Shown piece by piece: positions 23,316-57,145 of a stretch of DNA of 57,145 nucleotides (position 1 is its first letter; each line of letters begins with the position of its first letter). The stretch lies in the IMG/VR virus record IMGVR_UViG_3300023110_001858, positions 1 to 57,145 of that record. One strand, written 5' to 3'. Under the pieces are notes generated by a model. The model was not told the DNA's origin, did not search any database, and worked only from the letters and a program-made list of their open reading frames with translations. The DNA is from a virus. The position numbers and the translations under genes are program-made.

Positions 23316-25460
23316 ATGAACGAAAATACTGGCACATATCAAGAAGACCGTAGTACGCAAACATTAACAGTTATGCAAAAGTATGCAAGTCGTCCGCAGC
23401 GAGGACTGGAACAAATAGATGTTTCATATGATACAAATAGACAAACAACATTATGTTTTGTTATGTGTCCTGAATGGAACCCCGAGTTTCCACCATACAA
23501 CTTAGCAAAACTTGCAGGTATTGCAAAAAGTGCAGGATATAGATGTAAAAGTTATGACCTAAATATTGAAAGTTACAATGCATACATGGAAGAAAAATGG
23601 CCACTGGATGTAAATCCCTGGCATGGTCCATACGATTGGAAATGGATCGGAGAAACATACTGGAACGAGCTACATGAATTTGTACAGCCTATTTTAGACC
23701 GTGCTATTGACGATATTATAAAGTTTGGTCCTGATGTAGTTGGATTCAGTTTATACTATTGTAACATTGAAAGTGTTCATTATATGATAGAACAACTTAA
23801 AGAGCGCAATAGTAGCATTAAGATTTTAATTGGTGGACCCAATACACACTACAGTTATTTTGTTCCTAGAGAAGATTACGATTATGTTATTAATGGTGAA
23901 GGAGAAAAGCCATTATTAAAACTACTAGATGAAATCGAAAGTAGTAAAGAAATTGAATATACTGAGCGTAAAGACAATACTCTAATTATTCGTCAACCGG
24001 AAGAAAGTAGACTGGATTTAAGTAACATGCCATTTCCAGACTATACAGACTTTCCAATGGACAAGTATCGTTTCCCAAATGGTGCATTGTGTGCTATTAG
24101 CCGTGGGTGTGTTGCTAAATGTACATTTTGTGAGGAAACACACTACTACAAATATAGACAACGTACTGCAGTAAGCACACTAGAAGAAGTCAAGTTTATG
24201 TACGATAACTATGGTACAAATGTTTTTTACTTTACTGATAGTTTAGTAAATGGCAATTTACGTGAATTACGTGCATTTGTTGAAGGTGTCAAAAGTGAAG
24301 GCATGGACATTAAGTGGAGTGGTTATGCACGTTGTGATGGTCGTATGGATCTAGAATACATGCAAGCATTATATGATGGCGGATGCGAAGTTTTAAGTTA
24401 TGGTATTGAAAGTGGAAGTCAAAAAGTACTTGATGACATGGACAAAAAAGTAACTATTGAAGAAATGGAAGCAAACTTTAGAGATGGACACAAAGTTGGT
24501 ATAAGTGCAAACACTAGTTGGATTTGCGGTTTTCCAACAGAGCGTCCAGTTGACTTTGAAGACACACTTACATTTATGTGGCGTGTAAGAAACTTGGGAC
24601 TAATGAGTGTTGGACAAGGGCCTGGCTTTAGTGTTGGTGTTGATAGTATTGTTGGCCAAAATTTGGAAAAATTTGAATTAAGCTGTAACTATTATTACGA
24701 CCACTGGATTAGAAAAGACTTTACTGCTAGTATTGTGCACAAGATGCAAAAGCAAAAAATGTTTAGTATCTTTACTGACTTGCTAACAGATTTGCATCCT
24801 GATTGTAGTTTGCCAACACGTTGGAATTTGCGTGAGCGTCATTACAATATTGAGTTTACAAACCCTGACTTTACACGTGATATAGATTACAACTATCATG
24901 ACTTTGATTATAATATTATTGACACTGGACTTGAAGGACATGTTGGTAATTTTGCTAACAGCATTGCAAATGATATTTGGCCGTTTTTACGAGTTGTATG
25001 GAGAGCACGTGGTGGTTACAAATTAAAATTATTATTTGAGCCAGAATGGGAAAAGCAAGAGTGGGGAGAACGTGGAGCAGCACCATTAACAGCATCTTAT
25101 TTGTTTGACATAGATGATGATGGTAATTGGAAAGCTGATTTTAAATGGGACTATCAACAAACACATCTTGACTATAAGTGGAAAGACGAGTATTATATAG
25201 AAGATGGTATAGAATGTTATGCTCCTGAAACTTGGGGACCGGTTTGGGGCCTGGTTAACTTTTATGGCAATAATAGTAATGGTGCTGTAAGAGCACGTAG
25301 ACTTGCTTGGAAAGGTGATCCAACTTATGATGGTAGAGATCCGTGGGAAAGTTTTGACATGGAGCAGTTTTTGGAACGCAAAGAGCAATTTAAAGAAGAC
25401 CGTATGGTGGATTTAAGTTACTGGTACGAATGGCAGGGCGAAGGAAAATGGAATGTCTGA
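23316..25460 (+). CDS. Radical SAM enzyme with N-terminal cobalamin-binding-like domain
   Basis: The protein is 714 residues long. Residues 45-200 look like the Rossmann-type cobalamin-binding domain of B12-dependent radical SAM enzymes: PPYNLAKLAGIAK, then DVVGFSLYYCN, then ILIGGPNTHY, then VINGEGE. Many such domains lack the DxHxxG base, and none is seen here. The cluster motif CVAKCTFC (C265, C269, C272) follows, with SYGIESGSQKVLDDM later as expected for the Elp3/MiaB-type barrel. About 230 residues follow the catalytic domain and are Trp-, Tyr- and Asp-rich with no recognised domain. B12-type family members often methylate or rearrange inactive carbons. It is the only one of this class in the window. 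Confidence 0.83.
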   Translation: MNENTGTYQEDRSTQTLTVMQKYASRPQRGLEQIDVSYDTNRQTTLCFVMCPEWNPEFPPYNLAKLAGIAKSAGYRCKSYDLNIESYNAYMEEKWPLDVNPWHGPYDWKWIGETYWNELHEFVQPILDRAIDDIIKFGPDVVGFSLYYCNIESVHYMIEQLKERNSSIKILIGGPNTHYSYFVPREDYDYVINGEGEKPLLKLLDEIESSKEIEYTERKDNTLIIRQPEESRLDLSNMPFPDYTDFPMDKYRFPNGALCAISRGCVAKCTFCEETHYYKYRQRTAVSTLEEVKFMYDNYGTNVFYFTDSLVNGNLRELRAFVEGVKSEGMDIKWSGYARCDGRMDLEYMQALYDGGCEVLSYGIESGSQKVLDDMDKKVTIEEMEANFRDGHKVGISANTSWICGFPTERPVDFEDTLTFMWRVRNLGLMSVGQGPGFSVGVDSIVGQNLEKFELSCNYYYDHWIRKDFTASIVHKMQKQKMFSIFTDLLTDLHPDCSLPTRWNLRERHYNIEFTNPDFTRDIDYNYHDFDYNIIDTGLEGHVGNFANSIANDIWPFLRVVWRARGGYKLKLLFEPEWEKQEWGERGAAPLTASYLFDIDDDGNWKADFKWDYQQTHLDYKWKDEYYIEDGIECYAPETWGPVWGLVNFYGNNSNGAVRARRLAWKGDPTYDGRDPWESFDMEQFLERKEQFKEDRMVDLSYWYEWQGEGKWNV

Positions 25461-43932: not shown

Positions 43933-45444
43933 ATGATTACTTGGGGTTGGACTGGCATGAGTCATGATGCTAGTCTTGCAGTTTTTAACGACAATGGATT
44001 AGAGTTTGCAGCACACAGTGAACGCTATAGCCGCATAAAGAATGACAAAAATTTACACAAAGATTTAATAAAAGAAGCATTGGAATACGGGCACCCTGAT
44101 AAAATTTATTTTTATGAAAATACATTCTTAAAAAAGACACGGCAACTTTATGCAGGACAGTACTCACTACTACGCAAACAATCACCTACTACATATATGC
44201 GCAAATACTTGCCTAAGGCACCTAAAAGCACTAGTACTAGTCATCATTTAGCACACGCAGCCGCAGGTTATTATACACATCCTTTTAAAACTAGTGACGC
44301 TGCAGTACTTGTACTAGACAGCATTGGCGAATGGAATACTATCAGTATTTGGGAAGGCACGAAAAAAGGTAAACTAAAAAAGCGTTGGAGTCAAAATTAT
44401 CCGCACAGTGTAGGTATTTGGTACAGTGCTATGACACAACGTATTGGATTAAAGCCACAGGAACACGAATACATCCTCATGGGCATGGCTGCAATAGGCG
44501 ATCCAGACCGGTATTATGAACTTATAAAGGCTGACTTTATTGATAAGTTACCAAGTTTACAAAATCCATGTATAGTATTCAAACGTAACTGTCATAGAGG
44601 ATGTATGGATTGGCGTCCTGACTTGAACAGTGTACAAGACTATGCTGACATCGCTGCAGCCACCCAACGTATATACGAAGAAATATTTGATCGATACTGT
44701 ATGATTACAGCAGATAAAACTGATAGTCGTAATTTAGTACTAATGGGAGGTTGTGTACTCAATTGTGTAGCAAATCCTATAGCAACTAAATATTTTGATA
44801 ATGTATGGATTATGCCCAATCCTGGCGATGCTGGTAGCGCAATTGGTTGCGTACTAGCACACAAACGAGAATTTATGGAGATGCCACATGCCTTCACAGG
44901 AACAAACATCCAAGGAGAGTACCCACTTGAAGACATTATCACAAACCTCAAAAGAGAAAAAATCACAGCCGTCGCTGCCGGTAGGGCAGAGTTCGGTCCA
45001 AGGGCTCTCGGACACAGAAGCATTCTTGCTGATCCTAGGGGACTAGATGTAAAGGACCGTGTTAATCAAATTAAACATCGAGAAGCATTTAGACCATTTG
45101 CACCAATGATTCTTGAAGAACATGCTGAAGAATATTTTGAGATGCCAGCCGGAATTAAAAGTTCTCCATTTATGCAATTTGTTGTTAAGTGTAAACAGCC
45201 AGACGAGTTTCCTGCTATTATACACTATGATGGAACAAGTCGTATACAAACCGTTGGAATAGAAAATGGAAACGTAAGAATGTTATTAGAAAAATGGTAT
45301 CGTGACACAGGATGCCCAATGTTGTTAAACACAAGCCTTAATATCAAAGGCGAGCCATTAGTTAACACAAGAGAGGACGCCGAGCGTTGGACAGAAAAAT
45401 ATGGAGTGCAAGTATGTTTACCAGAGTTTGGAGATGGATTATAA
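43933..45444 (+). CDS. Carbamoyltransferase (NodU/CmcH/TobZ family)
   Basis: The 503-residue enzyme has both halves of the family. The N-terminal Kae1-like part has SHDASLAVF and HHLAHAA (residues 104-110), which bind metal and the carbamoyl-adenylate. The C-terminal YrdC-like signature is GRAEFGPRALGHRSI (from residue 350). These enzymes carbamoylate a hydroxyl of a sugar or antibiotic using carbamoyl phosphate and ATP. The length is slightly below the common 540-600. Codons 317-372 or so (44881-45047) prefer C-ending codons and AGG, unlike the rest of the gene. It heads a new transcription unit, and its last 31 bases overlap a small reading frame. Confidence 0.87.
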   Translation: MITWGWTGMSHDASLAVFNDNGLEFAAHSERYSRIKNDKNLHKDLIKEALEYGHPDKIYFYENTFLKKTRQLYAGQYSLLRKQSPTTYMRKYLPKAPKSTSTSHHLAHAAAGYYTHPFKTSDAAVLVLDSIGEWNTISIWEGTKKGKLKKRWSQNYPHSVGIWYSAMTQRIGLKPQEHEYILMGMAAIGDPDRYYELIKADFIDKLPSLQNPCIVFKRNCHRGCMDWRPDLNSVQDYADIAAATQRIYEEIFDRYCMITADKTDSRNLVLMGGCVLNCVANPIATKYFDNVWIMPNPGDAGSAIGCVLAHKREFMEMPHAFTGTNIQGEYPLEDIITNLKREKITAVAAGRAEFGPRALGHRSILADPRGLDVKDRVNQIKHREAFRPFAPMILEEHAEEYFEMPAGIKSSPFMQFVVKCKQPDEFPAIIHYDGTSRIQTVGIENGNVRMLLEKWYRDTGCPMLLNTSLNIKGEPLVNTREDAERWTEKYGVQVCLPEFGDGL

Positions 45445-45530
45445 GTCCATATACAAAATATAAGAAGCGTAAAGCAGTTAAAAAGCGTATAGAAGAATTA
45501 AAAAAACAAGACCCGTTTATATATGAATGA
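45414..45530 (+). CDS. Small basic protein between carbamoyltransferase and TctA
   Basis: This 38-residue frame starts at ATG 45414 inside the carbamoyltransferase and ends at TGA 45528-45530, eight bases into the TctA gene. It fills the only gap between the two (45445-45522). The product has an amphipathic or short hydrophobic start (VWRWIISPY), then a Lys/Arg/Glu helix (KAVKKRIEELKK) and ends DPFIYE. The charge pattern and the two short overlaps, the normal style in this genome, support a real gene. It is too short to be TctB, which has four membrane segments. Function is unknown. Confidence 0.55.
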   Translation: MFTRVWRWIISPYTKYKKRKAVKKRIEELKKQDPFIYE

Positions 45531-46959
45531 AATTTTAGCACTATTGTCCGGTACGTTGTACGGACTAATAATTGGAATAATTCCAGCCGCAGGTGCTACC
45601 ACTGGATTGGTAGCCTTGTTTGGCTTTATGAGTTACTTTACAGATCCTTATTTAGGTGTTATTTTTTGTATGGCAGTTGTGGCAGCCAGTACAACAGGTG
45701 ATACTTACACTGGTGTACTATTGGGTATACCTGGTGCTAACAGTGCAGCGGCTACTGTTGTAGATGGTCATCCACTTGCCAAACAAGGATTGGCTACATA
45801 TGCTATTACTTCTGCAATTGTTACTAGCACACTAAACGGAATATTGTGGGGAACACTTACCTTTGCATTGCTTCCTTGGTATACTGGCCTAATTATGATT
45901 TTAGGTATACCCGAGCTTTGGGCATTTACTATATTAGCACTTGCTACTGTTGGATTTATTAGTAATCGTTACTGGGTTAGAAGTTTAATTGCAATTGGAA
46001 TTGGTGTTTTTATTGGAATGATTGGCGTTGATCCCAATACTAATGCAGACCGTTTTACATTTGGCTGGGACTATCTAGCTGACGGTGTGCAGTTGATGGT
46101 GTTTGTAGCAGGGTTATTTGCAATACCGGAAATGCTAGAAGGATTTACTAAAAACAAGCAACTAACAAAAGCAAGAATGAAAGATAATCGCACACAAACA
46201 CTGGACGGTATTCGTGCAGTTTGGCAATACAAATGGGATGCTATACGTGGTGGATTTATTGGAGCATTTGTTGGGCTATTGCCTGGACTTGGTGGTGCAA
46301 TGAGTGACTGGATGGCATATGGTGCAACCGTAGCAGCACATAGAAAAAAAGTATTTGGTACTGGACAAATTGTTGGTGTTATAGGTCCAGAAGGTGCAAA
46401 CAATGCACAAAAAGCAACTAGCATGATCCCAACAGTGTTGTTTGGTATACCAGGTGCAAGTTTTGCTGCAGTACTAATGGCACTGTTTATGTATTTGGGA
46501 TTTGAATTAGGAACACCAGATTTAGCATATGACGATCGTTTCTTTGATAGTTTATTATATGGATTCATGTGGGCAACTGTAATAGTTGGCGTTTTTTGTT
46601 TGGTCTTTACACCATACATAAGTCGTATTGCTTATGTACCTTACAAGTATTATTTTCCAGTATTGTTGGTTTTTATTACTTGGGCATGTGTTCAGTATAC
46701 AGGCGGATGGGAAGATTATGCAATGCTAGTAATTTGTAGTGTATTTGGCGTCTTAGCAAAACGATTTAAATTTAGTAGAGCAGCAATATTAGTTGCATTT
46801 ATACTTGCAGAACGAATTGAAAACTTGACAATACAACTGGCATCGTTGTATACTATTGAAAGTTTAATAGCAAGACCTATCTTTATAACAATTATGTTAT
46901 TAAGTGTAGGCTGTTTGGTATATGGAATATCAAACAAAAATAAATTGGAGTATAGCTAA
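45523..46959 (+). CDS. tctA: TctA-family membrane transporter subunit
   Basis: The 478-residue protein has about twelve hydrophobic segments. LLGIPGANSAAATVVDGHPLAKQG is the TctA signature, and a second inverted-repeat motif (FVGLLPGLGGAMSDWMAYG, later PTVLFGIPGASFAAVL) is present. TctA is the large inner-membrane subunit of tripartite tricarboxylate transporters, which take up citrate and related organic acids with a periplasmic binding protein. Here TctC follows directly (ATG in the TctA stop), but no TctB-like four-helix subunit is seen. It may pair with a host TctB or work without one. Confidence 0.85.
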   Translation: MNEILALLSGTLYGLIIGIIPAAGATTGLVALFGFMSYFTDPYLGVIFCMAVVAASTTGDTYTGVLLGIPGANSAAATVVDGHPLAKQGLATYAITSAIVTSTLNGILWGTLTFALLPWYTGLIMILGIPELWAFTILALATVGFISNRYWVRSLIAIGIGVFIGMIGVDPNTNADRFTFGWDYLADGVQLMVFVAGLFAIPEMLEGFTKNKQLTKARMKDNRTQTLDGIRAVWQYKWDAIRGGFIGAFVGLLPGLGGAMSDWMAYGATVAAHRKKVFGTGQIVGVIGPEGANNAQKATSMIPTVLFGIPGASFAAVLMALFMYLGFELGTPDLAYDDRFFDSLLYGFMWATVIVGVFCLVFTPYISRIAYVPYKYYFPVLLVFITWACVQYTGGWEDYAMLVICSVFGVLAKRFKFSRAAILVAFILAERIENLTIQLASLYTIESLIARPIFITIMLLSVGCLVYGISNKNKLEYS

Positions 46960-47999
46960 TGAAAAAGCTATTAGTCAGCATTGCACTGGTAGCAATTGCG
47001 ACAACTGCACAAGCTGATTATACTATGGTTGTTCCACAAAAGCCTGGCGGCGGAACAAGTGTATGGGCAGAAATTGTGGCAGGTGAACTAGAAAAGTATC
47101 TCGGCGAAGATATTGTAATCACCCACATTCCTGGCGCTCGTGATATTCCTGGATTTAACGCTTGGCACAATGAAATGCGTGACGACGATAAAGTTATTAT
47201 GGTGTCACACGGAGGTAACGGTGTAAGTTTCCTACAAGAAGAAGTAGATTACGATTACAGACAATATCAAAGTATTGGTCTTATGAACTTAAATATTATC
47301 GCTGGTAAAGCCGTTGGCGATGACATGGACGAGATTAGATTTGCAGCAGGTTCAGGTATGGTACCAGAAGCATTTGCAATGACAATGTTAGAGTGTGGTC
47401 CGGATCAAACAGTTGATACATACGTTGCATGTTTTAATGAAAATGTAACTTGGGTCAAAGGCATGAGTGGCGGTGAACGACGACTGGCATTTAGGCGTGG
47501 TGAACTAAACGGTACTCGTGAAAATCCAGCAGCATATTTAAAGCACGTAGCAAGTGACGAAAATGCTGAAGTTTGGTTCCATCATGGTATTTTACAATCA
47601 GATGGCAGTCATGCAGATGATCCAAACTATCCTGGATTTCAATTTGAGATTTTATTTGAACAGCGTTGGGGAGTAGCACCAAGTGGTGAATTTTACGATG
47701 CATATAAACTAGTTAAAAGTTTTCGTGACGGTCTACAAAAAGCATTATGGGTAAGTGCAGATAATCCAAATCGAGATCATTTAGTTGATGCAATGCAGCG
47801 CATGGCTGCAAACCCAACCAGCCGACAAGTGTTTTTAGAAAAAGTTGGTAACTATGAATGGTTAATGGGTGACGCTGGAGATGCACAACGTGACACGTTA
47901 ATGACATTTATTACACTAGAAGCATTATCAACACTTGTTGAATTTAACACTCGTGCACTAGGATTAGAAAGTGTGTTTAAACCTGAACTTGGACTATGA
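46959..47999 (+). CDS. tctC: TctC-like periplasmic solute-binding protein
   Basis: The 346-residue protein has a clear Sec signal: MKKLL, a hydrophobic core and TTAQA before residue 20 as a signal peptidase I site. The mature protein starts with YTMVVPQKPGGGTSVWAEIVA, then ITHIPGARDIPGFNAW, matching TctC/Bug-type binding proteins, in which the PGG loop contacts a carboxylate ligand. A signal peptide in a phage gene implies export to the periplasm of a Gram-negative host. The ligand cannot be named. The start codon overlaps the TctA stop by one base. Confidence 0.8.
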   Translation: MKKLLVSIALVAIATTAQADYTMVVPQKPGGGTSVWAEIVAGELEKYLGEDIVITHIPGARDIPGFNAWHNEMRDDDKVIMVSHGGNGVSFLQEEVDYDYRQYQSIGLMNLNIIAGKAVGDDMDEIRFAAGSGMVPEAFAMTMLECGPDQTVDTYVACFNENVTWVKGMSGGERRLAFRRGELNGTRENPAAYLKHVASDENAEVWFHHGILQSDGSHADDPNYPGFQFEILFEQRWGVAPSGEFYDAYKLVKSFRDGLQKALWVSADNPNRDHLVDAMQRMAANPTSRQVFLEKVGNYEWLMGDAGDAQRDTLMTFITLEALSTLVEFNTRALGLESVFKPELGL

Positions 48000-48511: not shown

Positions 48512-49234
48512 ATGCTAGATGTAATTCAAATCAGCTATCATGAGCCCGAAGCTGATGAAAATTTTGAAATATTACAATATTATGCACCACATGCAAAGCG
48601 TGTACAGGGTGTTAAAGGTATTTTTGAAGCACACAAAGCTGCAGCTGAACTAGCTGAAACCAACAACTTCTATGTAATTGATGCTGATGCTGTATTAGAA
48701 GAAGACTTTGGATTTAATTTTAGACCTGACGCTAACAAAATGGAATATGGTCACGTAGCACAAACAGATTGTGTATATACTTGGCGCAGTCGTAACCCTA
48801 TAAATGATCTAGTATACGGATATGGCGGTGCAAAATTATTTCCAAGAAAAGCATTACTAAAAGCCAAGAGATGGAATGTTGATATGACTACAACTATTGG
48901 TGCTAGTTTTGTTCCCAAGTTTCAGATTTCAAATATTACAGCATTTAATACAAGTCCTTTTGACACCTGGAAAAGTGCTTTTAGAGAATGTACAAAACTT
49001 GCAAGTAGTATTATTCCCAACGGTGATAATATAGACAATCAATACAGACTGGATATTTGGTGCACACGTGGTTCTGACCGTCCTTACGGAAAGTTTGCAA
49101 TTTTAGGAGCAAACCAAGGAAGAGAATTTGGTACACATTATCGTAATGATACCAAAGTCCTTAAAAAAATTAATGACTTTGAATGGCTACGTGAAACGTT
49201 TGAAAAGGCAATAGATGATGAGCAACTTAGCTGA
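48512..49234 (+). CDS. Glycosyltransferase-like protein, shorter paralogue of the gene at 16637
   Basis: The product has 240 residues. IQISYHEPEADENF, AHKAAAELAET and FYVIDADAV (D57-A-D59) repeat the order found in the gene at 16637, as do PINDLVYGYGGAKLFP and FDTWKSAFRECTKLAS. It lacks about 90 C-terminal residues of that copy. It is probably a GT-A-type transferase with a DxD metal site. It overlaps the next gene by 20 bases. Confidence 0.65.
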   Translation: MLDVIQISYHEPEADENFEILQYYAPHAKRVQGVKGIFEAHKAAAELAETNNFYVIDADAVLEEDFGFNFRPDANKMEYGHVAQTDCVYTWRSRNPINDLVYGYGGAKLFPRKALLKAKRWNVDMTTTIGASFVPKFQISNITAFNTSPFDTWKSAFRECTKLASSIIPNGDNIDNQYRLDIWCTRGSDRPYGKFAILGANQGREFGTHYRNDTKVLKKINDFEWLRETFEKAIDDEQLS

Positions 49235-50261
49235 AAAGTTAGAAGTAGAAGAAAATATTTTACCACTGGAAATACACGAGCTACTAGACAGATATGAACT
49301 TTTATATCCAGATGTTACTGAATTATCTGATTTACGCCGTATAATAGTTGACCACGATCTTAGCAGCATTTTTAGAATTGCTGATGAAAATGACGAGTTA
49401 CGCAAAGCAGTTATCGAAGAAAATTTACATAGCATTTTTAGAGTATTGGAAAGTAAGAGTTGTTTTGAAGTTGATGACTTGTACAACTATATGGAAGACG
49501 TGCGCAAAGCAGTTGTTAATAAAAATTTACGCAGTCTTTTTAAATTACTTAATGCTGACGATTTAAGGAAAATTTGTTTAGATAAAAATTACTGGAAACT
49601 TTGGCCTTTACTAGAACAGTATACTGATACAAGATTTACTGCAGCATTCAAAAACTTTTATGTAAACAACACAGTAATTGATGCTGATTGCTTTAGCAGA
49701 GGTCAGTTAAAAAGTAAACTTTGGATAATTGAAGAATTAGAAAAACTAAACATGCCATTGGGTATGACGTACCTGTGTGCAGGGTGGTATGCTACACTTG
49801 CTACTATGTTATTTGAAAGTAACATTGTCGTAGATAAAGTTAGATCTTTTGACATTGATCCCAGTGTTGTAGATATTGCAAAAACATTTAACAAGCCTTG
49901 GGTAATGGATAGTTGGAAGTTTCAAGCAGCTACATTAGATATACATGATATTGACTTTTTATCACATACTTACAATGTAAAACGAGCAGATGGATCTCTG
50001 TGTTCACAAACCACTGTTCCAGATACAATTATCAATACAAGTTGTGAACACATAGAGCACTTTGAAGATTGGTACGAAAAAATACCCCAAGGCAAACTAC
50101 TAATTTTACAAAGTAATAATTTTCGAGAAATTAAAGAACATGTAAATTGTGTTGACAATTTGTTTGAATTTAAACGTATAGCACATATGAGTATTTTGTT
50201 ATATGAAGGTGAACTTGACCTGGGAAAATACAAAAGGTTTATGTTAATTGGACGTAAGTAA
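49215..50261 (+). CDS. SAM-dependent methyltransferase-like protein with N-terminal short repeats
   Basis: This is a 348-residue protein; ATG 49215 and ATG 49218 are adjacent candidates. The C-terminal part (from about residue 180) looks like a methyltransferase: MTYLCAGWYATLATML as motif I without the usual Gly-rich signature, VRSFDIDPSVVDIA as motif II, and DTIINTSCEHIEHFEDW as motif IV. Before it, residues 40-133 hold four copies of a 17-20 residue unit of the form LR(K/R)a(V/I)...NL.S(I/L)F.LL. The repeats may form a small helical scaffold. Together they suggest binding to a protein or RNA partner, but that is inference. Confidence 0.65.
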   Translation: MMSNLAEKLEVEENILPLEIHELLDRYELLYPDVTELSDLRRIIVDHDLSSIFRIADENDELRKAVIEENLHSIFRVLESKSCFEVDDLYNYMEDVRKAVVNKNLRSLFKLLNADDLRKICLDKNYWKLWPLLEQYTDTRFTAAFKNFYVNNTVIDADCFSRGQLKSKLWIIEELEKLNMPLGMTYLCAGWYATLATMLFESNIVVDKVRSFDIDPSVVDIAKTFNKPWVMDSWKFQAATLDIHDIDFLSHTYNVKRADGSLCSQTTVPDTIINTSCEHIEHFEDWYEKIPQGKLLILQSNNFREIKEHVNCVDNLFEFKRIAHMSILLYEGELDLGKYKRFMLIGRK

Positions 50262-50475
50262 ACTATCAGTTAGAGAACTTCAGCTTGAAGCCGTACGAGC
50301 AATAAGCACAATGGAAGCAACTAACAATAACATTTACAAGTTTAATAAACAAGCGCATCACGACAGTCATGCATGGTATCGTGCTGTAATTGAATGGTAT
50401 ATTGACGAATATGGAGACTTGCCTAGTAAGTACGGACCTGGAAAGGACGTAAAACTATTAATGGATGATCAATGA
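50248..50475 (+). CDS. Small phage protein of unknown function
   Basis: This 75-residue frame starts at TTG 50248, 14 bases before the end of the methyltransferase, and ends four bases into the next gene, so it fills the gap exactly. The sequence is helical and His/Tyr-rich (AISTMEATNNNIYKFNK, AWYRAVIEWYIDEYG), with no motif I recognise. No signal or membrane segment is seen. It is a possible small partner or precursor peptide for the downstream radical SAM enzymes, but nothing in the sequence shows a leader/core arrangement. Confidence 0.5.
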   Translation: MDVSKLSVRELQLEAVRAISTMEATNNNIYKFNKQAHHDSHAWYRAVIEWYIDEYGDLPSKYGPGKDVKLLMDDQ

Positions 50476-51320
50476 ATTTTTCTCTTGACTTTGGAGAAAG
50501 TGACACATATACACTAGAGCTTTGTGCTAGAGATACCAGTGTTGGACGCCGCTGGTATCAATTGTTGTCTGAACATGTAGAACGTGACAACCGCTGCAGT
50601 GAACCACAGCGTTTATATAACTTTCCAAAAGATCCCTGGGACGAAGAAGCACTTGTGCAGGAACTCAATCGCTGCATTAGTATAGTTAATGATTATCAAA
50701 AAGTAATCAATCATAATGCAAGCGTGGGCATGAGTCAAGAAACATTTAATGAATTGCATCATTATTTTGAAGTGCTTCGTGGTGAAGTCATTGAGGGCAC
50801 CGAATTTTTTAATAAAGCCCCACGTGTTGTACAAGACGCATTAAATGATTACAATGTTTGTATTCATCGCACTGAATCATTTTACATGGGCAAACGTTGG
50901 CAGCGACGAGCACCAAGAATCGTGTGTACATTAAATAACATTGAAAGGCAATTGTTAGAAACTGAAGACTATGAAAACTTTGTAACCGACTTGCCAGCAG
51001 GTACAGCATTTGTAAATTATTGTCAAGTAGGTAAGCCAATATTGGATGTATTCAGAGATGGTGATGAAATAATATTTGATGATACTGTGCGTCCATTAAA
51101 ATACCTGGGTCCTGATTTTAGTTTTTATTTGGCAAATACACAAGAAGAAACTAATGGACTAGCTGAATGGATGTCAGCTAACGGATACGACATTAATGAC
51201 AAAACCAATGCTATCGGAGTATTGCCTGTCGCAGATGTCATTTGGAAAGACGATCCTGAAACAACAATATTAGAAATATCTAAAAGACAGTATATAAAAT
51301 GTATAACTATAAAAACATAA
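50472..51320 (+). CDS. Phage protein of unknown function beside radical SAM genes
   Basis: I do not recognise this 282-residue acidic protein. It opens with short strands (FSLDFGESDTYTLELCARD). A central helical part follows (SIVNDYQKVINHN, FNELHHYFEVLRGEV), and it ends in strand-like segments (FVNYCQVGKPILDVFRDGDEIIFDD). The overall order resembles the unknown protein at 32957, though identity is too low to assert kinship. Its last bases overlap the start of the radical SAM enzyme at 51299, so it is likely made together with that enzyme. Confidence 0.5.
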   Translation: MNFSLDFGESDTYTLELCARDTSVGRRWYQLLSEHVERDNRCSEPQRLYNFPKDPWDEEALVQELNRCISIVNDYQKVINHNASVGMSQETFNELHHYFEVLRGEVIEGTEFFNKAPRVVQDALNDYNVCIHRTESFYMGKRWQRRAPRIVCTLNNIERQLLETEDYENFVTDLPAGTAFVNYCQVGKPILDVFRDGDEIIFDDTVRPLKYLGPDFSFYLANTQEETNGLAEWMSANGYDINDKTNAIGVLPVADVIWKDDPETTILEISKRQYIKCITIKT

Positions 51321-52381
51321 AAATGGTACATTTGGAAGTCACACAGCGTTGCCAAGCAGCGTGTCCTATGTGCGACCGTAATGAGAATGGTGGGCCAGAT
51401 AATCGTCACATTAATAACACAGAATTAACTTTAGATGACTGTAAAAAGATATTCAGCATTGACTTCATAAAGCAATTGTCTACAATGTATATGTGTGGCA
51501 ACTTGGGTGATCCTATTGTTGCACACGACACATTGGAGATATTCAAATACTTTAGGGAACATAACCCTACAATGTGGTTGAGCATGAATACAAACGCAGG
51601 AGCAAGAGATGAAACGTGGTGGACTGAATTGGCTAGAACTTTTGGTCGTAACGGCGCTGTTATTTTCAGTGTTGATGGGCTTATGGATACTAACCACCTT
51701 TATCGTCAGAATGTTAAATGGGACAATGTGGTTCATAGTATGAAATCATTTATCGCAGCGGGCGGCAGGGCTCGTTGGGACTATATTATATTTGGACACA
51801 ACGAACATCAAGTTGACGAAGCTGAAGCACTTGCTAAAGAGTGGGGCTGTGAAAAATTTATACGCAAAAAGAGCGGCCGCTTCTTTACAGCAAGTAATCG
51901 AGGTAAAGATACACACCAAGCACAAAATCGCAAAGGGCAAGAAACGCAGTTACTTGAAAAGCCTAAAGCACTTGACAATCAAAACTTAGCACTACTAAAA
52001 CAAAAAGAAATAGAAAAAACATACGGAAGTATGTTAGAGTATTATAACAAGTGTGATATCATTTGTAAAGCTGTAGATAAAAAAGAAATCTTTATTACAG
52101 CAGAAGGATTGCTAATGCCTTGCTGTTGGACTGCTGGACGTATGTACAAATGGTGGCACAAAGATCCACGTGTAGAACAAATATGGGATCATATAGATGC
52201 AGCTGGTGGCAAAGATGCTATTGACTGTCGTATTAACACAATAGAACAAGTCATGGATGGACCATTACTTGATAGTATTGAAATGAGTTGGCATAAAAAC
52301 ACTGTTGAATCTGGAAAGCTAGGTGTTTGTGCACAAAAATGTGGAAGTGAGTTTGATCCGTTTGGAGCACAATTTGTCTAG
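51299..52381 (+). CDS. Radical SAM enzyme with C-terminal SPASM domain
   Basis: The 360-residue enzyme has CQAACPMC (C18, C22, C25) close to the N-terminus. MYMCGNLGDPI is in the GGEP position, an alternative form of that SAM-binding motif. The C-terminal third has cysteines typical of a SPASM domain: CDIICKAVDKKEIFI, LLMPCCWTAGR and VCAQKCG. Domain order is conventional, unlike the twitch-type enzymes in the window. The next gene is a paralogue with the same CGN.GDPI segment. SPASM enzymes often modify peptides, but sugars and nucleotides are also known targets. Confidence 0.85.
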   Translation: MYNYKNIKMVHLEVTQRCQAACPMCDRNENGGPDNRHINNTELTLDDCKKIFSIDFIKQLSTMYMCGNLGDPIVAHDTLEIFKYFREHNPTMWLSMNTNAGARDETWWTELARTFGRNGAVIFSVDGLMDTNHLYRQNVKWDNVVHSMKSFIAAGGRARWDYIIFGHNEHQVDEAEALAKEWGCEKFIRKKSGRFFTASNRGKDTHQAQNRKGQETQLLEKPKALDNQNLALLKQKEIEKTYGSMLEYYNKCDIICKAVDKKEIFITAEGLLMPCCWTAGRMYKWWHKDPRVEQIWDHIDAAGGKDAIDCRINTIEQVMDGPLLDSIEMSWHKNTVESGKLGVCAQKCGSEFDPFGAQFV

Positions 52382-53150
52382 TTTTAAAAATAAAAAAATT
52401 AGACACTTGCACCTAGGACTCACACATAAATGTGTGTTACAGTGTAGTGAATGTGCTAGAACATATCAAACAGGGCCTACTCGAGATCTACTTGATTGGA
52501 CCAAATACAAACAAGTTATTGATCGAAGCACTGACATTCTTTTATGTGGCAATTGGGGAGACCCCATTTACTATAGTAAATTATTTGAATTGTGCTCTTA
52601 TATAAAAAAGAAATCCTGGTGGCAAAAGCAAGGTCCTCGATCAATACTCATGCACACTAACGGTACAGGACAAACTCCTGAATGGTGGAGTAAATTTGGT
52701 AGTATACTTGATGAACGTGATAATATCATTTTTAGTATAGACGGAACGTTGTCTAGCAGTGCTAATTATCGCATTAATTCAAATCGTATAAGTATAGTAA
52801 ATGGAATTATTCATTTACGGTCGGTGTGTTCAGCACAATTAGTTTGGAAACATCTTGTATTTGCATATAACATAGATACTGTTGGAACAGTAATTGATCA
52901 GGCACGTGCATTAAAATTTGATCGTGTAGAGTTTGTACATGCATTTACAGACAATAAGCCAGAAAATTATATAGCATGGAATGTTGAAGATGTAAAGTCT
53001 CACATTTATCAACATTTTAAATATCTTGAAGATATACATCATACAACTGTTGATAAATTATTGCCAATTAAATCCAGAGAGGACGAGTGGGACAAATGGA
53101 TAAAAGTAGATCTAAGATACTGGCCAAATGCATCGCCGGAAACCATTTAG
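52374..53150 (+). CDS. Radical SAM enzyme, catalytic part of a gene split from its SPASM domain
   Basis: The likely start is TTG 52374, six bases after GGAG and overlapping the previous stop; a frame with GTG 52323 is longer but lies inside the previous gene. The 258 residues include CVLQCSEC, the cluster motif, and LLCGNWGDPI, and match the paralogue at 51299 along most of its catalytic domain. The match ends near DEWDKWIK. The expected SPASM cysteines are not in this frame but in the adjacent one, starting around 53096. Sequence error, true frameshift or two separate chains are all possible. Confidence 0.72.
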   Translation: MSSFKNKKIRHLHLGLTHKCVLQCSECARTYQTGPTRDLLDWTKYKQVIDRSTDILLCGNWGDPIYYSKLFELCSYIKKKSWWQKQGPRSILMHTNGTGQTPEWWSKFGSILDERDNIIFSIDGTLSSSANYRINSNRISIVNGIIHLRSVCSAQLVWKHLVFAYNIDTVGTVIDQARALKFDRVEFVHAFTDNKPENYIAWNVEDVKSHIYQHFKYLEDIHHTTVDKLLPIKSREDEWDKWIKVDLRYWPNASPETI

Positions 53151-53374
53151 TGCAACCTTTTATTGAGTTAGATGGTACTTTTTTGCCTTGCTGTTGGTTA
53201 TCAACTGATGTAGAACGTGTACAAGCACTAAAAGATCTTTATGGCAGCGATTATAAAAATTTAAATGTAAAAGAAAATGACGTTGATAGCATTATTGAAT
53301 TATGGGATCGCATTTCAGATACTTGGGAGCATGACCCTTTTAAAACATGCCAAGTAATGTGTGGGAAAGAATAA
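53096..53374 (+). CDS. SPASM-domain fragment continuing the radical SAM gene at 52374
   Basis: This 92-residue frame from ATG 53096 (GTG 53087 is also in frame) lies -1 relative to the upstream gene and overlaps it by 55 bases. It carries KCIAGNH, FLPCCWLST and CQVMCGKE, corresponding in order to the SPASM cysteines of the paralogue at 51299 (CDIICKAV, LMPCCWTA, CAQKCG). AGAGGA (53077-53082) is a possible but rather distant ribosome binding site. The PP-loop gene begins right after its stop. Either it is the real C-terminus of the radical SAM enzyme after a frameshift, or a separately made cluster-binding protein. Confidence 0.65.
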   Translation: MDKSRSKILAKCIAGNHLVQPFIELDGTFLPCCWLSTDVERVQALKDLYGSDYKNLNVKENDVDSIIELWDRISDTWEHDPFKTCQVMCGKE

Positions 53375-54193
53375 ATGTTTAATAAAACAGAACTTCATAC
53401 TAGATATGATACACCATATGGTGCAGCATACTTTAATCGTGTTGCAAAGCACAATATGGTTAGACTTAGTGGTGGTTTTGATAGTGCAGTTATGTTATAC
53501 TTACTAGCAAAAACACTAAGTGAGTACAGAGATGATGCTGTTATTGAACCATTTACAGTACAACGTAGTAATCCAGTACAAATACCAGAATACGAGCGTG
53601 TATACATTGTTCCTTATGCAAAGCGTATTATTGATTATGTGCGTGAGCGTTTTCCTACTGTTGCTATTAATGATACACTGATAGAAGATGCAAACTACTG
53701 GTGGGTGCATGAGTTTGTAGACGGACGTAACATTAGTAGTTATGGAGGTGCACAAGAAAACGTGAGTGGCTTTTTACGTTGGAGACATCGTGAAAGAATA
53801 GCTGAAGTTACTGATCCTGAGTCGAGATATTATATTGAGTATAATGGTGTGACACGCAACCCTCCATTACAATGTGTAGAGCAAAGTGACGAAGCACATA
53901 GAGACTTATTAGACAATCGTGTGTTATTTGAATCTAGTGCAACAGTGTGTCATGATAGTCTGACTGATTGGATGTATCAATACCAGCCTTGGAGAAATGC
54001 AGACAAGCGTATTGTTTTTTGGTTAGCTGAACAGCATGGCATACTTGATGATATGCTAGTATTAGCTAGAAGCTGTGAAGGTGACCAATGGAATACAGAA
54101 AACTTTACAAAAGCATGTGGTGAATGTTGGTGGTGCTTGGAACGTGACTGGGCACATGACAACTTTAAAAATACAGAGATAGTACATGGATAA
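53375..54193 (+). CDS. QueC-like PP-loop ATPase with C-terminal zinc site
   Basis: The 272-residue protein has VRLSGGFDSAVML, the PP-loop motif SGGFDS (residues 32-37) of N-type ATP pyrophosphatases. The last 40 residues give C234 and CGECWWC (C248, C251, C254), the same order and spacing style as the zinc site of QueC, which makes 7-cyano-7-deazaguanine. Overall length is near QueC's 220-240, with an insertion. PP-loop enzymes adenylate a substrate carbonyl or oxygen to form amides, nitriles or thio groups. No QueD, QueE or FolE partner is seen, so deazaguanine synthesis is not established. It starts one base after the SPASM fragment and overlaps the next radical SAM gene by eight bases. Confidence 0.77.
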   Translation: MFNKTELHTRYDTPYGAAYFNRVAKHNMVRLSGGFDSAVMLYLLAKTLSEYRDDAVIEPFTVQRSNPVQIPEYERVYIVPYAKRIIDYVRERFPTVAINDTLIEDANYWWVHEFVDGRNISSYGGAQENVSGFLRWRHRERIAEVTDPESRYYIEYNGVTRNPPLQCVEQSDEAHRDLLDNRVLFESSATVCHDSLTDWMYQYQPWRNADKRIVFWLAEQHGILDDMLVLARSCEGDQWNTENFTKACGECWWCLERDWAHDNFKNTEIVHG

Positions 54194-55580
54194 ATCAACA
54201 TTTTGTATCTTACCTTGGGTACATTTAAGTACACGACCAGACGGAAGTATGCGAGTATGCTGCACTGCTAATGCCAGTAGTGTTGGCCCTACTAACGATA
54301 AAAGTTTATACGGTGGCATGGTTGGTGTACTTAAAGATGATGAAGGACGACCAAACAACTTAAATGTTACAGATTTCCAAAGTAGTTGGAACAGCAAGTA
54401 TATGAAGAATGTACGCAAGCAAATGATGAACGGAGAAGTACCACCAAGTTGTATAAAATGTTTTAAAGAAGAAAGTGCAGGGCACCGAAGTAAACGTCAA
54501 TGGGAAACTGCATACTGGAGCGAACGTGTTGATGTTGACCGCTTACTGGAAAATACCACTGAAGATGGAGAAGTACCGCCAGAGTTAACTTACATTGATT
54601 TACGTTTTGGCACCAAATGTCAACTTGCTTGTGTAATGTGTAGCCCACATGATAGTTCAGGTTGGATTAAAGATCACAGTAAAATTTTACCACAAGTACA
54701 AAATGAAACATTACGTGATACCATGCAGTGGGTAGATAAGGGCAGTACAAACGGAAGTAGTTATAACTGGCACAAAAATAATCCTGTGTTTTGGGATCAG
54801 TTTTATGAACAAATACCAAACATGAAGCAAATTTATTTTGCAGGTGGTGAAAGTTTAATTATTGAGGAACATTATGAAATACTTGAAGAATGCATACGCC
54901 AAGGCCATGCAAAGAATCTCGAACTACGTTATAACTCAAATGGAGTTGAATGGAGAGAGGATTTATTCGATCTATGGCGAGAATTCAAACTTGTGCGTTT
55001 TCACTATTCGGTAGATAGCATACATGATATGAACGATTACATACGCTATCCCAGTGAATGGAAGCGTACAGAAGAAGTGTTTCATATACTTGACAAAGAC
55101 ACTAGTAATAATGTAGAAGTTACAGTTGCTTGTGCAGTTCAAGCACTTAATGTATATTACTTGCCAGACTTTATTAAATGGAAACTAGAACAAAATTTCC
55201 ATAAAGTAAACATGTGGCCATTTGGTGCAGGTGGTGTAAATTATCATTTTGTCTATCATCCTGCACACTTAAATGTAAAAGTACTGCCTGCTTGGTTTAA
55301 AGCAGAGTGTAGACGCAAATACGAGGAGTTTTATCCCTGGTGGGAAGCCAATTGGGAAAAGTCAATACCTGCTTGGCACAAAGGTAAAGTAGATTACGAT
55401 ACTTGGCGCAATGCTGATTACGGCATAAAGCGTTTAGAAGGTATGCTGAGCTTTATGGAAAGCGAAGACTGGAGCAATCGTTTGCCTGAGCTACAAGAGT
55501 TTTTAACATTGTGTGATGCACAGCGTGGAAATAGTTTTGCAAAGACGTTTCCAGAAATGAAAGGTATATTTGATGGATAA
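54186..55580 (+). CDS. Radical SAM enzyme with N-terminal twitch/SPASM-like domain
   Basis: The 464-residue enzyme has the N-terminal auxiliary pattern C7 (FCILPWVHL), C25/C26 (MRVCCTA) and C89/C92 (CIKCFKEE). The catalytic motif CQLACVMC (C145, C149, C152) follows, and then FAGGESLI, where the usual GGEP is GGES. A Ser for Pro change in this SAM-contacting loop is uncommon but tolerated in some members. It overlaps the PP-loop gene by eight bases and the next twitch-type enzyme by eight, so the three are one coupled unit. Confidence 0.85.
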   Translation: MDKSTFCILPWVHLSTRPDGSMRVCCTANASSVGPTNDKSLYGGMVGVLKDDEGRPNNLNVTDFQSSWNSKYMKNVRKQMMNGEVPPSCIKCFKEESAGHRSKRQWETAYWSERVDVDRLLENTTEDGEVPPELTYIDLRFGTKCQLACVMCSPHDSSGWIKDHSKILPQVQNETLRDTMQWVDKGSTNGSSYNWHKNNPVFWDQFYEQIPNMKQIYFAGGESLIIEEHYEILEECIRQGHAKNLELRYNSNGVEWREDLFDLWREFKLVRFHYSVDSIHDMNDYIRYPSEWKRTEEVFHILDKDTSNNVEVTVACAVQALNVYYLPDFIKWKLEQNFHKVNMWPFGAGGVNYHFVYHPAHLNVKVLPAWFKAECRRKYEEFYPWWEANWEKSIPAWHKGKVDYDTWRNADYGIKRLEGMLSFMESEDWSNRLPELQEFLTLCDAQRGNSFAKTFPEMKGIFDG

Positions 55581-56952
55581 TCCTAAACACAGCGATTGCA
55601 GTACATTTTGTCCATTGCCATGGAATAGTATAAACATTCGTAACAATGGCGATATTAGAATATGTTGTAACGCTAACAGTTATACAGAAAACCGTGGCAT
55701 TGTTAGACACGATGATGGAACCCCATATAATGCCAGCAAAGATAATTTGCAAGACAGTCGTAACAGTGAACTAAGTCGTGATGTACGTGCTACTATGTTG
55801 CGTGGAGAATGGCATCCGGAATGTGAACGTTGTAGACAAGAAGAGTTAAATGGTGTTTTGAGTCGCAGACAAATGGAGTATAACGACTGGGACTTAACGC
55901 CAGAAACGGCTGTTGAACTTACACAAGAAGACGGAACAATTAACACTGACGACTTTGCACTTGAGTTTTTTGATATACGTTATGGTAACTTCTGTAATTT
56001 AAAATGCCGTATGTGCGGACCAACTGATAGTCATAGTTGGTTTGACGATTTTGTTAAACTTAATGATCGTACACATTATAAAGACACACATGAAAAAATA
56101 CAATTGACTAAAAATGAAAAGGGACGTTGGGTTACAGATCAGTATGATTGGTTTAAAGGATCAAATATGTACTGGACTAACTTCGAGGACTATACTAAAG
56201 ATGCTAAAAAACTTTATATTGTTGGTGGTGAGCCACTTATTATTGAAGAGCATGTTGACAGTTTAGAAAGGTTAATACACAACGGCAGTGCAGCAGACAT
56301 GCAAATTGAGTACAATACAAATTTAACAAATGTAACACCTCGCATGTTAGAACTTTGGAAACATTTTAAAGAGATAAGAATCGGTGCTAGTATTGATGCA
56401 TGTAATGAAATATTTGACTATCAACGTGCACCTGCTAAATGGGAACATGTGTATGAAAACTTAAAAAAGATTGAAGCAAATGACGACATTAATTTTAAAT
56501 GTTGGTTTGCATTTACTATTACACCACTAAACGTTTTTCATTTTCCTGAATTTATGCGATGGAAAGTAGAAGAAAGCGGACTTACTAAATTTAATCCTGT
56601 ACACAGTTGGCGACCACTAGCAAGTTTTCATATGTGTCACAGTCCCAAGTATTATAATATTAAAGTGTTACCAGACGATATTAAAGCAGAAGTAAGTCGT
56701 CAGTATAGTGAATGGCGAACTTGGATGATAGAAAGTGATAATATTGATAATATCAAAAAACATTTTGTTAAACATCTTGACAGTGTAGAAAAATTTATGT
56801 TAAGTGAAAGCTATAGCGACCAAGATTGTTGGAGCGGGAGAACATGGCTAGAAGAGTTTGTTTGGATTACACGAGAGTTAGACCAAATACGTGGACAAAA
56901 TATACTAGACATTGTTCCAGAATACAAGAGTTTGTTTGATGAGAATAACTAA
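55573..56952 (+). CDS. Radical SAM enzyme with N-terminal twitch/SPASM-like domain
   Basis: ATG 55573 is chosen over TTG 55570; the product is 459 residues. Auxiliary cysteines are C13 (FCPLPWNSI), C31/C32 (IRICCNA) and C84/C87 (CERCRQEEL). The catalytic motif is CNLKCRMC (C141, C145, C148), followed by YIVGGEPLI. The arrangement, the N-terminal DDGTPYN/DDEGRPNN segment and the late LDQIRGQN/CDAQRGNS segment link it with its upstream neighbour as a tandem pair. It overlaps the partial radical SAM gene by 14 bases. Confidence 0.85.
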   Translation: MDNPKHSDCSTFCPLPWNSINIRNNGDIRICCNANSYTENRGIVRHDDGTPYNASKDNLQDSRNSELSRDVRATMLRGEWHPECERCRQEELNGVLSRRQMEYNDWDLTPETAVELTQEDGTINTDDFALEFFDIRYGNFCNLKCRMCGPTDSHSWFDDFVKLNDRTHYKDTHEKIQLTKNEKGRWVTDQYDWFKGSNMYWTNFEDYTKDAKKLYIVGGEPLIIEEHVDSLERLIHNGSAADMQIEYNTNLTNVTPRMLELWKHFKEIRIGASIDACNEIFDYQRAPAKWEHVYENLKKIEANDDINFKCWFAFTITPLNVFHFPEFMRWKVEESGLTKFNPVHSWRPLASFHMCHSPKYYNIKVLPDDIKAEVSRQYSEWRTWMIESDNIDNIKKHFVKHLDSVEKFMLSESYSDQDCWSGRTWLEEFVWITRELDQIRGQNILDIVPEYKSLFDENN

Positions 56953-57145
56953 TGAAAATCTGGACTGTGCAATTGTTACACTTTTTATTCACAATGTGTG
57001 TAACTACAATTGCAGCTATTGCAGTGACTTTCATAGAGACGGTAGTAATCGTTGGCCTGAAGATTGGCAGCCTTACTTGGACTTTTTAGAACGTGTAAAG
57101 CAAACCAACAAGTACTTGTACGTAGAAGTACTGGGAGGAGAGCCT
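56939..57145 (+). CDS. Radical SAM enzyme, 3' partial at the window edge
   Basis: The frame from ATG 56939 runs open to the right edge (69 codons). It contains CNYNCSYC, the cluster motif, 20 residues from the start, then VEVLGGEP at the very end of the window. The short N-terminus before the motif and the GSNRW segment after it resemble the enzyme at 25453 (CNFRCSYC, GSNKN). This suggests the same subclass with a C-terminal auxiliary domain that lies outside the window. Confidence 0.82.
   Translation, partial: MRITNENLDCAIVTLFIHNVCNYNCSYCSDFHRDGSNRWPEDWQPYLDFLERVKQTNKYLYVEVLGGEP

Follow-up and report, generated by a model that had tools for sequence, protein, structure and literature searches.

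The gene at positions 53375..54193 (+ strand) of a 57,145-nucleotide stretch of viral DNA (IMG/VR record IMGVR_UViG_3300023110_001858, hereafter the window) encodes a PP-loop protein of 272 amino acids, which is predicted here, with a probability of about 0.5, to be a QueC/Cap9-type enzyme that activates a carboxylate with the use of ATP and takes part in tailoring by multiple radical S-adenosylmethionine (SAM) enzymes and not in 7-deazaguanine synthesis. In such a phage-encoded pathway, which would include radical SAM enzymes of the N-Twi (N-terminal-twitch) and SPASM types, a substrate would first be prepared by radical SAM enzymes, which perhaps also change the scaffold further. The PP-loop protein would then use ATP to activate a carboxylate (or a similar oxygen) of this substrate as an adenylate, and attack by ammonia or another amine would give an amide. 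The fold class, the PP-loop, the four-cysteine site, the link with N-Twi genes and the fact that the QueC substrate motifs have been lost were computed directly; we infer the amide-forming chemistry from what is known of PP-loop enzymes, and which substrate is used and in what order the steps occur are predictions as well.

The PP-loop signature SGGFDS occupies residues 32-37 of the protein, and cysteines 234, 248, 251 and 254 form a C-terminal site of the pattern C-x13-C-x2-C-x2-C. Both features had been pointed out by a model that was given the letters of the window and its open reading frames (ORFs), referred to below as the sequence-only reading, and both were confirmed. The ORF is not a chance one: in the comparison with a relative (locus L001, 79% identical overall), 75 of its codon changes are synonymous and 44 non-synonymous, third positions account for 97 of the 154 changes, and its neighbourhood is statistically enriched. 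An AlphaFold2 model of the protein was obtained with a predicted local distance difference test score (pLDDT) of 78 and a predicted template modelling score (pTM) of 0.83. The best match of this model in the VIA fold comparison was QueC 3bl5 (Z 14.2, 183 residues aligned, root-mean-square deviation 3.3), and further scores were 13.5 for QueC 2pg3, 13.1 for Cap9 9nto and 13.0 for QatC 9y02; NcsA (Z 12.3), LarE (Z 11.6) and NAD synthetase ranked behind these three groups. Foldseek also placed QueC first. The protein is therefore QueC/Cap9/QatC-like in its predicted fold, in line with the QueC-like character assigned by the sequence-only reading. A sequence search of the PDB with the window protein alone returned chance matches only, the family profile matches to Cap9 and QueC extended over the PP-loop as well as the zinc end, and no close known PP-loop family emerged from the profile and fold searches.

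Motifs for canonical QueC catalysis and for the recognition of 7-carboxy-7-deazaguanine (CDG) were taken from the literature (PMC13329287; PMC13279940), and the motif definitions for the comparison with QueC and Cap9 were those of PMC13329287. The 49 aligned family members have a mean column identity of 20%, and each of the canonical QueC motifs YxQxHxxE, VPxRN and YPDC, which contain residues that are essential in Escherichia coli QueC (PMC13329287), was found in 0/49. The exact QueC zinc motif C(x)8CxxCxxC occurs in one of the 49, the spacer being x6-27 in the family and x13 in the window protein. The Cap9-like elements P-[FW]-x4-K and C-E were present in 47/49 and 38/49 members, respectively (P205-W-x4-K211 and C234-E235 in the window protein), whereas the Cap9 motif YxDC was found in none and Y/FxQ(x)5E in one. 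The members were chosen partly by SGGxDS and by the end motif, so the conservation of these two was selected for; among the remaining positions, K211 and C234 are invariant and P163, P205, T231 and S233 nearly so. The PF06508 (QueC) score of the window protein was 16.6 bits, below the curated cut-off of 22. FolE and QueD, which the sequence-only reading had not seen, were searched for and not found in the window, which is an incomplete fragment. Because of the missing motifs and the PF06508 score, with FolE and QueD absent from the incomplete fragment, the protein is not classified as QueC, although its mode of action may be that of the superfamily. The relay from QueE to QueC on a purine, which the sequence-only reading had drawn on, is not supported, as the CDG-recognition motif is found in 0/49 members and, of the 50 longest family-carrying virus contigs, only 6 have a full-length QueE (QueD in 8/50).

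The link of the PP-loop family with N-Twi radical SAM genes is non-random. When neighbour classes were counted in 107 dereplicated members, 38 had an N-Twi gene directly downstream and 36 had another radical SAM gene within three genes. A same-strand N-Twi gene directly downstream was found in 38/104 cases against 10.3 +/- 2.5 expected from within-locus permutation (maximum 23 in 5000), and the order is asymmetric, with only 11 cases of an upstream N-Twi gene. The downstream N-Twi gene also recurs throughout the family tree, in which the starred branches force a minimum of 10 changes. NF033640, the N_Twi family profile, scored above its cut-off in 45 of the 50 contigs mentioned above and in 7 of 31 control contigs of 22-149 kb picked by terminase (Fisher p = 7e-10), with up to twenty-one matches per PP-bearing viral contig. 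The radical SAM association suggested by the sequence-only reading thus proved real and recurrent, and it was also seen in metagenome-assembled genomes (MAGs) of Bdellovibrionota. Other recurrent neighbours include an AspH-type beta-hydroxylase family (33 loci; match to 7v4f with E 9.5e-21), a methyltransferase-like protein (23 loci), genes of the pyridoxal phosphate (PLP) type, glycosyltransferase-like and epimerase-like genes, and the 282-amino-acid family encoded in the window at 50472-51320. The resemblance of a further neighbour family (A8), a candidate two-oxoglutarate oxygenase, to prolyl 4-hydroxylase was weak (E 0.097).

The family is diverse and mostly viral. Viral contigs searched with a degenerate DNA pattern for its CGxC-aromatic-aromatic-CxERxW end gave at least 119 matching stretches, and in nearly all of these the ORF carries SGGxDS further upstream. 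In 257 Gb of cellular genomes the pattern matched only six stretches, in MAGs labelled Bdellovibrionota, Chloroflexi and Gammaproteobacteria. A profile search detected the family in 7/144 genomes of the class to which one of these Bdellovibrionota MAGs belongs. When 50,697 isolate phages were searched by tblastn with six members (those of the window, L041, L077, L006, L017 and L036), nothing matched at E 0.001 to 0.01; this search could miss distant members, given that identities in the family are mostly 20-28%. Several settings were observed among the members. A sub-clade (L017, L009, L100 and L107) lies beside a large terminase gene with no radical SAM genes nearby. Only in L013 was a member noticed, by eye, a few genes away from ORFs resembling FolE and QueE. 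In a Bdellovibrionia MAG (L124, 3238-6935), the gene stands among CysN/CysD/APS-kinase-like and sulfotransferase-like genes (by eye). Dense radical SAM arrays with PP-loop genes are present in a Bdellovibrionales MAG contig (L220-L222) and in L224; the Bdellovibrionota arrays reach 37 NF033640 matches per MAG, with a carbamoyltransferase-like gene and membrane proteins alongside.

In the window, the PP-loop gene sits in a same-strand string of five radical SAM enzymes, and every gene of the final 6 kb is on the + strand and touches or overlaps the next. The features are as follows:

23316-25460: radical SAM protein with a B12-binding domain
43933-45444: carbamoyltransferase (PF02543/PF16861)
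48512..49234, + strand: glycosyltransferase-like protein (by eye), syntenic in L001, L056 and L226
49215..50261, + strand: protein whose N-terminal part has short repeats and whose C-terminal half resembles methyltransferases (by eye), with homologues in 23 PP loci
50248..50475, + strand: conserved ORF of 75 amino acids ahead of the radical SAM genes, conserved in L103 and L226
50472..51320, + strand: partner protein of 282 amino acids found repeatedly in PP/N-Twi cassettes, predicted to form a cyclophilin-like barrel that has a helical insertion
51299..52381, + strand: radical SAM enzyme with C-terminal SPASM-type cysteines (PF04055 30.5 bits, cut-off 29.5; weak TIGR04317 and MftC-like scores)
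52323..53150, + strand: radical SAM core of a split enzyme whose SPASM part is encoded separately, starting at GTG 52323 or TTG 52374
53096..53374, + strand: SPASM half of the split enzyme, a separate ORF in the -1 frame, ATG conserved in L001
53375..54193, + strand: PP-loop ATPase of a mostly viral family, QueC/Cap9-like fold, four-cysteine metal site
54186..55580, + strand: N-Twi radical SAM enzyme directly downstream of the PP-loop gene (NF033640 414.7 bits, cut-off 170)
55570..56952, + strand: second N-Twi radical SAM enzyme (NF033640 357.6 bits, cut-off 170)
56939..57145, + strand: radical SAM enzyme of about 300 amino acids, cut by the fragment end (weak PF04055 match, PHROG 13987 match), full-length in L001 (8866-9786)

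These assignments agree with the placement of the PP-loop gene between SPASM-type and twitch-type radical SAM genes in the sequence-only reading. In L001 the homologous unit is complete as far as position 10709. Its eight-base overlaps hold for two junctions, that of the PP-loop gene with the 54186 gene and, provided TTG at 52374 is the start, that of the 51299 gene with 52374; the others measure 0 (53374/53375), 11 (55570) and about 14 bases (56939). This compact same-strand layout, with junctions of 0-14 bases, was counted in favour of a joint tailoring pathway. The two N-Twi proteins are clear members of NF033640, a family for which we know of no function. For the 49215-50261 protein, no Pfam match and no significant PHROG match were found. 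The 75-amino-acid ORF, without a family or PHROG match, is strongly conserved in L103 and L226 ahead of the first radical SAM gene, and its product could possibly be a small substrate or an adaptor. The 282-amino-acid family also had no Pfam or PHROG match. Cyclophilins make up most of the first forty VIA-align entries for its model (Z about 9-11); Foldseek gave nothing better than E 0.1, and the resemblance comes from VIA-align alone.

The radical SAM gene that immediately precedes the PP-loop gene consists of two ORFs, a radical SAM core ending at 53150 and a SPASM ORF at 53096-53374, a split that the sequence-only reading had missed. The halves overlap in the -1 frame both in the window (52323-53374) and in L001 (4256-5289). 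Among the loci compared, the best remote match of both halves was in one Bdellovibrionales MAG, again as two ORFs, with an eight-base overlap (ATGGCTGA), a +1 relation and GAGG seven bases before the ATG. The split pairs outside the window and L001 span 5192-6182 in L221, part of a Bdellovibrionales MAG contig, 2980-3983 in L226 and 2941-3928 in L229; the relation is -1 with an ATGA overlap in L226, and +1 in L229-L231 and L221. The core/SPASM pair was not present in L103, another relative of the unit. In the overlap, the codon changes between the window and L001 are synonymous in 4/8 cases in the SPASM frame and in 0/8 in the core frame, which favours the SPASM frame, so that this frame is probably translated there. 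Programmed -1 frameshifting was rejected, as the loci have no slippery heptamer in common and the halves stand in opposite frame relations in different lineages (-1 in the window, L001 and L226; +1 in L221 and L229), which argues for two genes. A sequencing error was also rejected, because the split is kept in L001 and the SPASM frame carries synonymous changes. A literature search of limited coverage found no split SPASM enzyme, and the pair would be a useful model for auxiliary Fe-S domains acting in trans.

The fragment is assigned to a phage because the two giant proteins encoded on it match PHROG 10938 (virion structural proteins). Their nearest counterparts occur in jumbo phages, among them PA5oct, BF and Vibrio phage 2.275 (26-28% identity), and the source is a large marine phage, so far uncultured. 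PF04055 matches were found at eleven places, and with the split core, which was missed by Pfam, the window encodes twelve radical SAM enzymes. With these and the tailoring genes, the pathway extends beyond the 6 kb considered in the sequence-only reading. A surface or virion glycan would be favoured as substrate by the glycan-type genes of the window (epimerase, TylF- and NovU-type methyltransferases, carbamoyltransferase), whereas a peptide would suit the AspH-type hydroxylase, the cyclophilin-like protein and the SPASM/twitch proteins; the evidence decides for neither. The substrate of the carbamoyltransferase could be a glycan or some other molecule. Genes resembling a TctA/TctC tripartite tricarboxylate transporter were noticed by eye at 45523-47999.

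The following points weigh against the proposed role. The model of the PP-loop protein has a pLDDT below 50 at residues 109-121 and 173-199, including a stretch near the expected substrate site. No radical SAM gene lies within three genes in 30 of the 107 dereplicated members, the terminase-side sub-clade among them, so the enzyme may have a role independent of local radical SAM genes. Furthermore, the control contigs compared with NF033640 were picked with the terminase of a PP-bearing phage and hence are not a random background.

QueC-type enzymes have recently been found to modify proteins in anti-phage defence, as for Cap9 and as proposed for QatC. In an alternative reading, the PP-loop protein could be a Cap9/QatC-like ligase that joins a small acid to a phage or host protein, at its N-terminus or at a side chain. 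The C-E and P-F-x4-K elements common with Cap9, the fold scores near those of Cap9 and QatC, and the loss of the CDG Tyr/Asp pair in QatC as well (PMC13279940) are in its favour, but no CD-NTase (by Pfam, in nine neighbouring proteins), QatA or QatD was found among the neighbours scanned, and the near-equal fold scores cannot separate a ligase from QueC; we regard it as unlikely. That the gene is unrelated cargo in a radical SAM-rich hypervariable island is quite unlikely: members also adjoin terminase, nrd-like and clp-like genes, and islands of T4-like marine phages are hypervariable (PMC7029224), but the permutation of positions within the same loci, the asymmetric order and the radical SAM adjacency in Bdellovibrionota MAGs all speak against it. 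A sulfur-transfer enzyme of the LarE, NcsA/TtuA or ThiI type, which would carry an Fe-S cluster on the cysteines and thiolate a substrate, is rather improbable; NcsA and LarE come fairly near QueC in fold score and ThiI is the top profile match by E-value, but the four-cysteine end lies outside the ThiI match, and in the alignments it corresponds to the zinc ends found in QueC and Cap9. A divergent true QueC making preQ0 or 7-amido-7-deazaguanine (ADG) for phage DNA or tRNA, with CDG from the host or from genes off the fragment, would fit the fold, the PF06508 similarity of 32/49 members (E<0.001), the FolE- and QueE-like genes near L013 and the contigs with QueD or QueE, but is very improbable given the missing motifs with their essential residues, the PF06508 score below cut-off and the lack of FolE and QueD in the window.

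Beyond the preferred role, activation of a carboxylate for amide formation, a broader and more tentative proposal can be made, to which we give somewhat less than an even chance: the viral QueC-superfamily clade, the N-Twi radical SAM enzymes and the two-gene radical SAM/SPASM enzyme together would represent an undescribed pathway that adds an amide-linked or similar group to a radical-modified glycan or peptide of phage or host. A large phage-side branch of the QueC superfamily, common in uncultured viruses, suggests a chemistry of the phages' own coupled to unusually large radical SAM arrays, and the genes form a concrete, expressible set for testing the role of N-Twi enzymes.

Among known systems, phage radical SAM arrays have been reported before, as glycosyltransferases and radical SAM gene cassettes in the hypervariable host recognition clusters of pelagimyophages (PMC7029224) and as 12 radical SAM genes in a T4-like viral genome (PMC5332604). 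The window is alike in carrying radical SAM genes in a marine phage, and the islands of PMC7029224 also hold glycosyltransferases; the PP-loop partner and the split enzyme are described in neither source, as far as the available parts of the two go. They seem undescribed, no description of either having been found in literature of limited coverage. The folds of the sulfurtransferases NcsA/TtuA and LarE rank below QueC for the window protein. QatC of qatABCD (9y01, 9y02) shares with the family the QueC core, the lost CDG Tyr/Asp pair and a long cysteine spacer, but has about 400 amino acids with N- and C-terminal extensions against 272 here, and its partners QatA and QatD were not found among the neighbours. 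Cap9 of type IV cyclic oligonucleotide-based anti-phage signalling systems (CBASS; 9nto) is similar in the C-E at the zinc end, P-F-x4-K and a close fold score, whereas YxDC, YxQ(x)5E and an adjoining CD-NTase are not seen here. Canonical QueC differs in having YxQxHxxE, VPxRN and YPDC, a cysteine spacing of x8 instead of x6-27, CY in place of CE, and QueD/QueE/FolE instead of N-Twi/SPASM radical SAM enzymes as neighbours; the two have in common the PP-loop Rossmann fold, SGGxDS, the C-terminal four-cysteine zinc-type end, the conserved Lys after P-[FLW]-x4 and a radical SAM enzyme as pathway partner.

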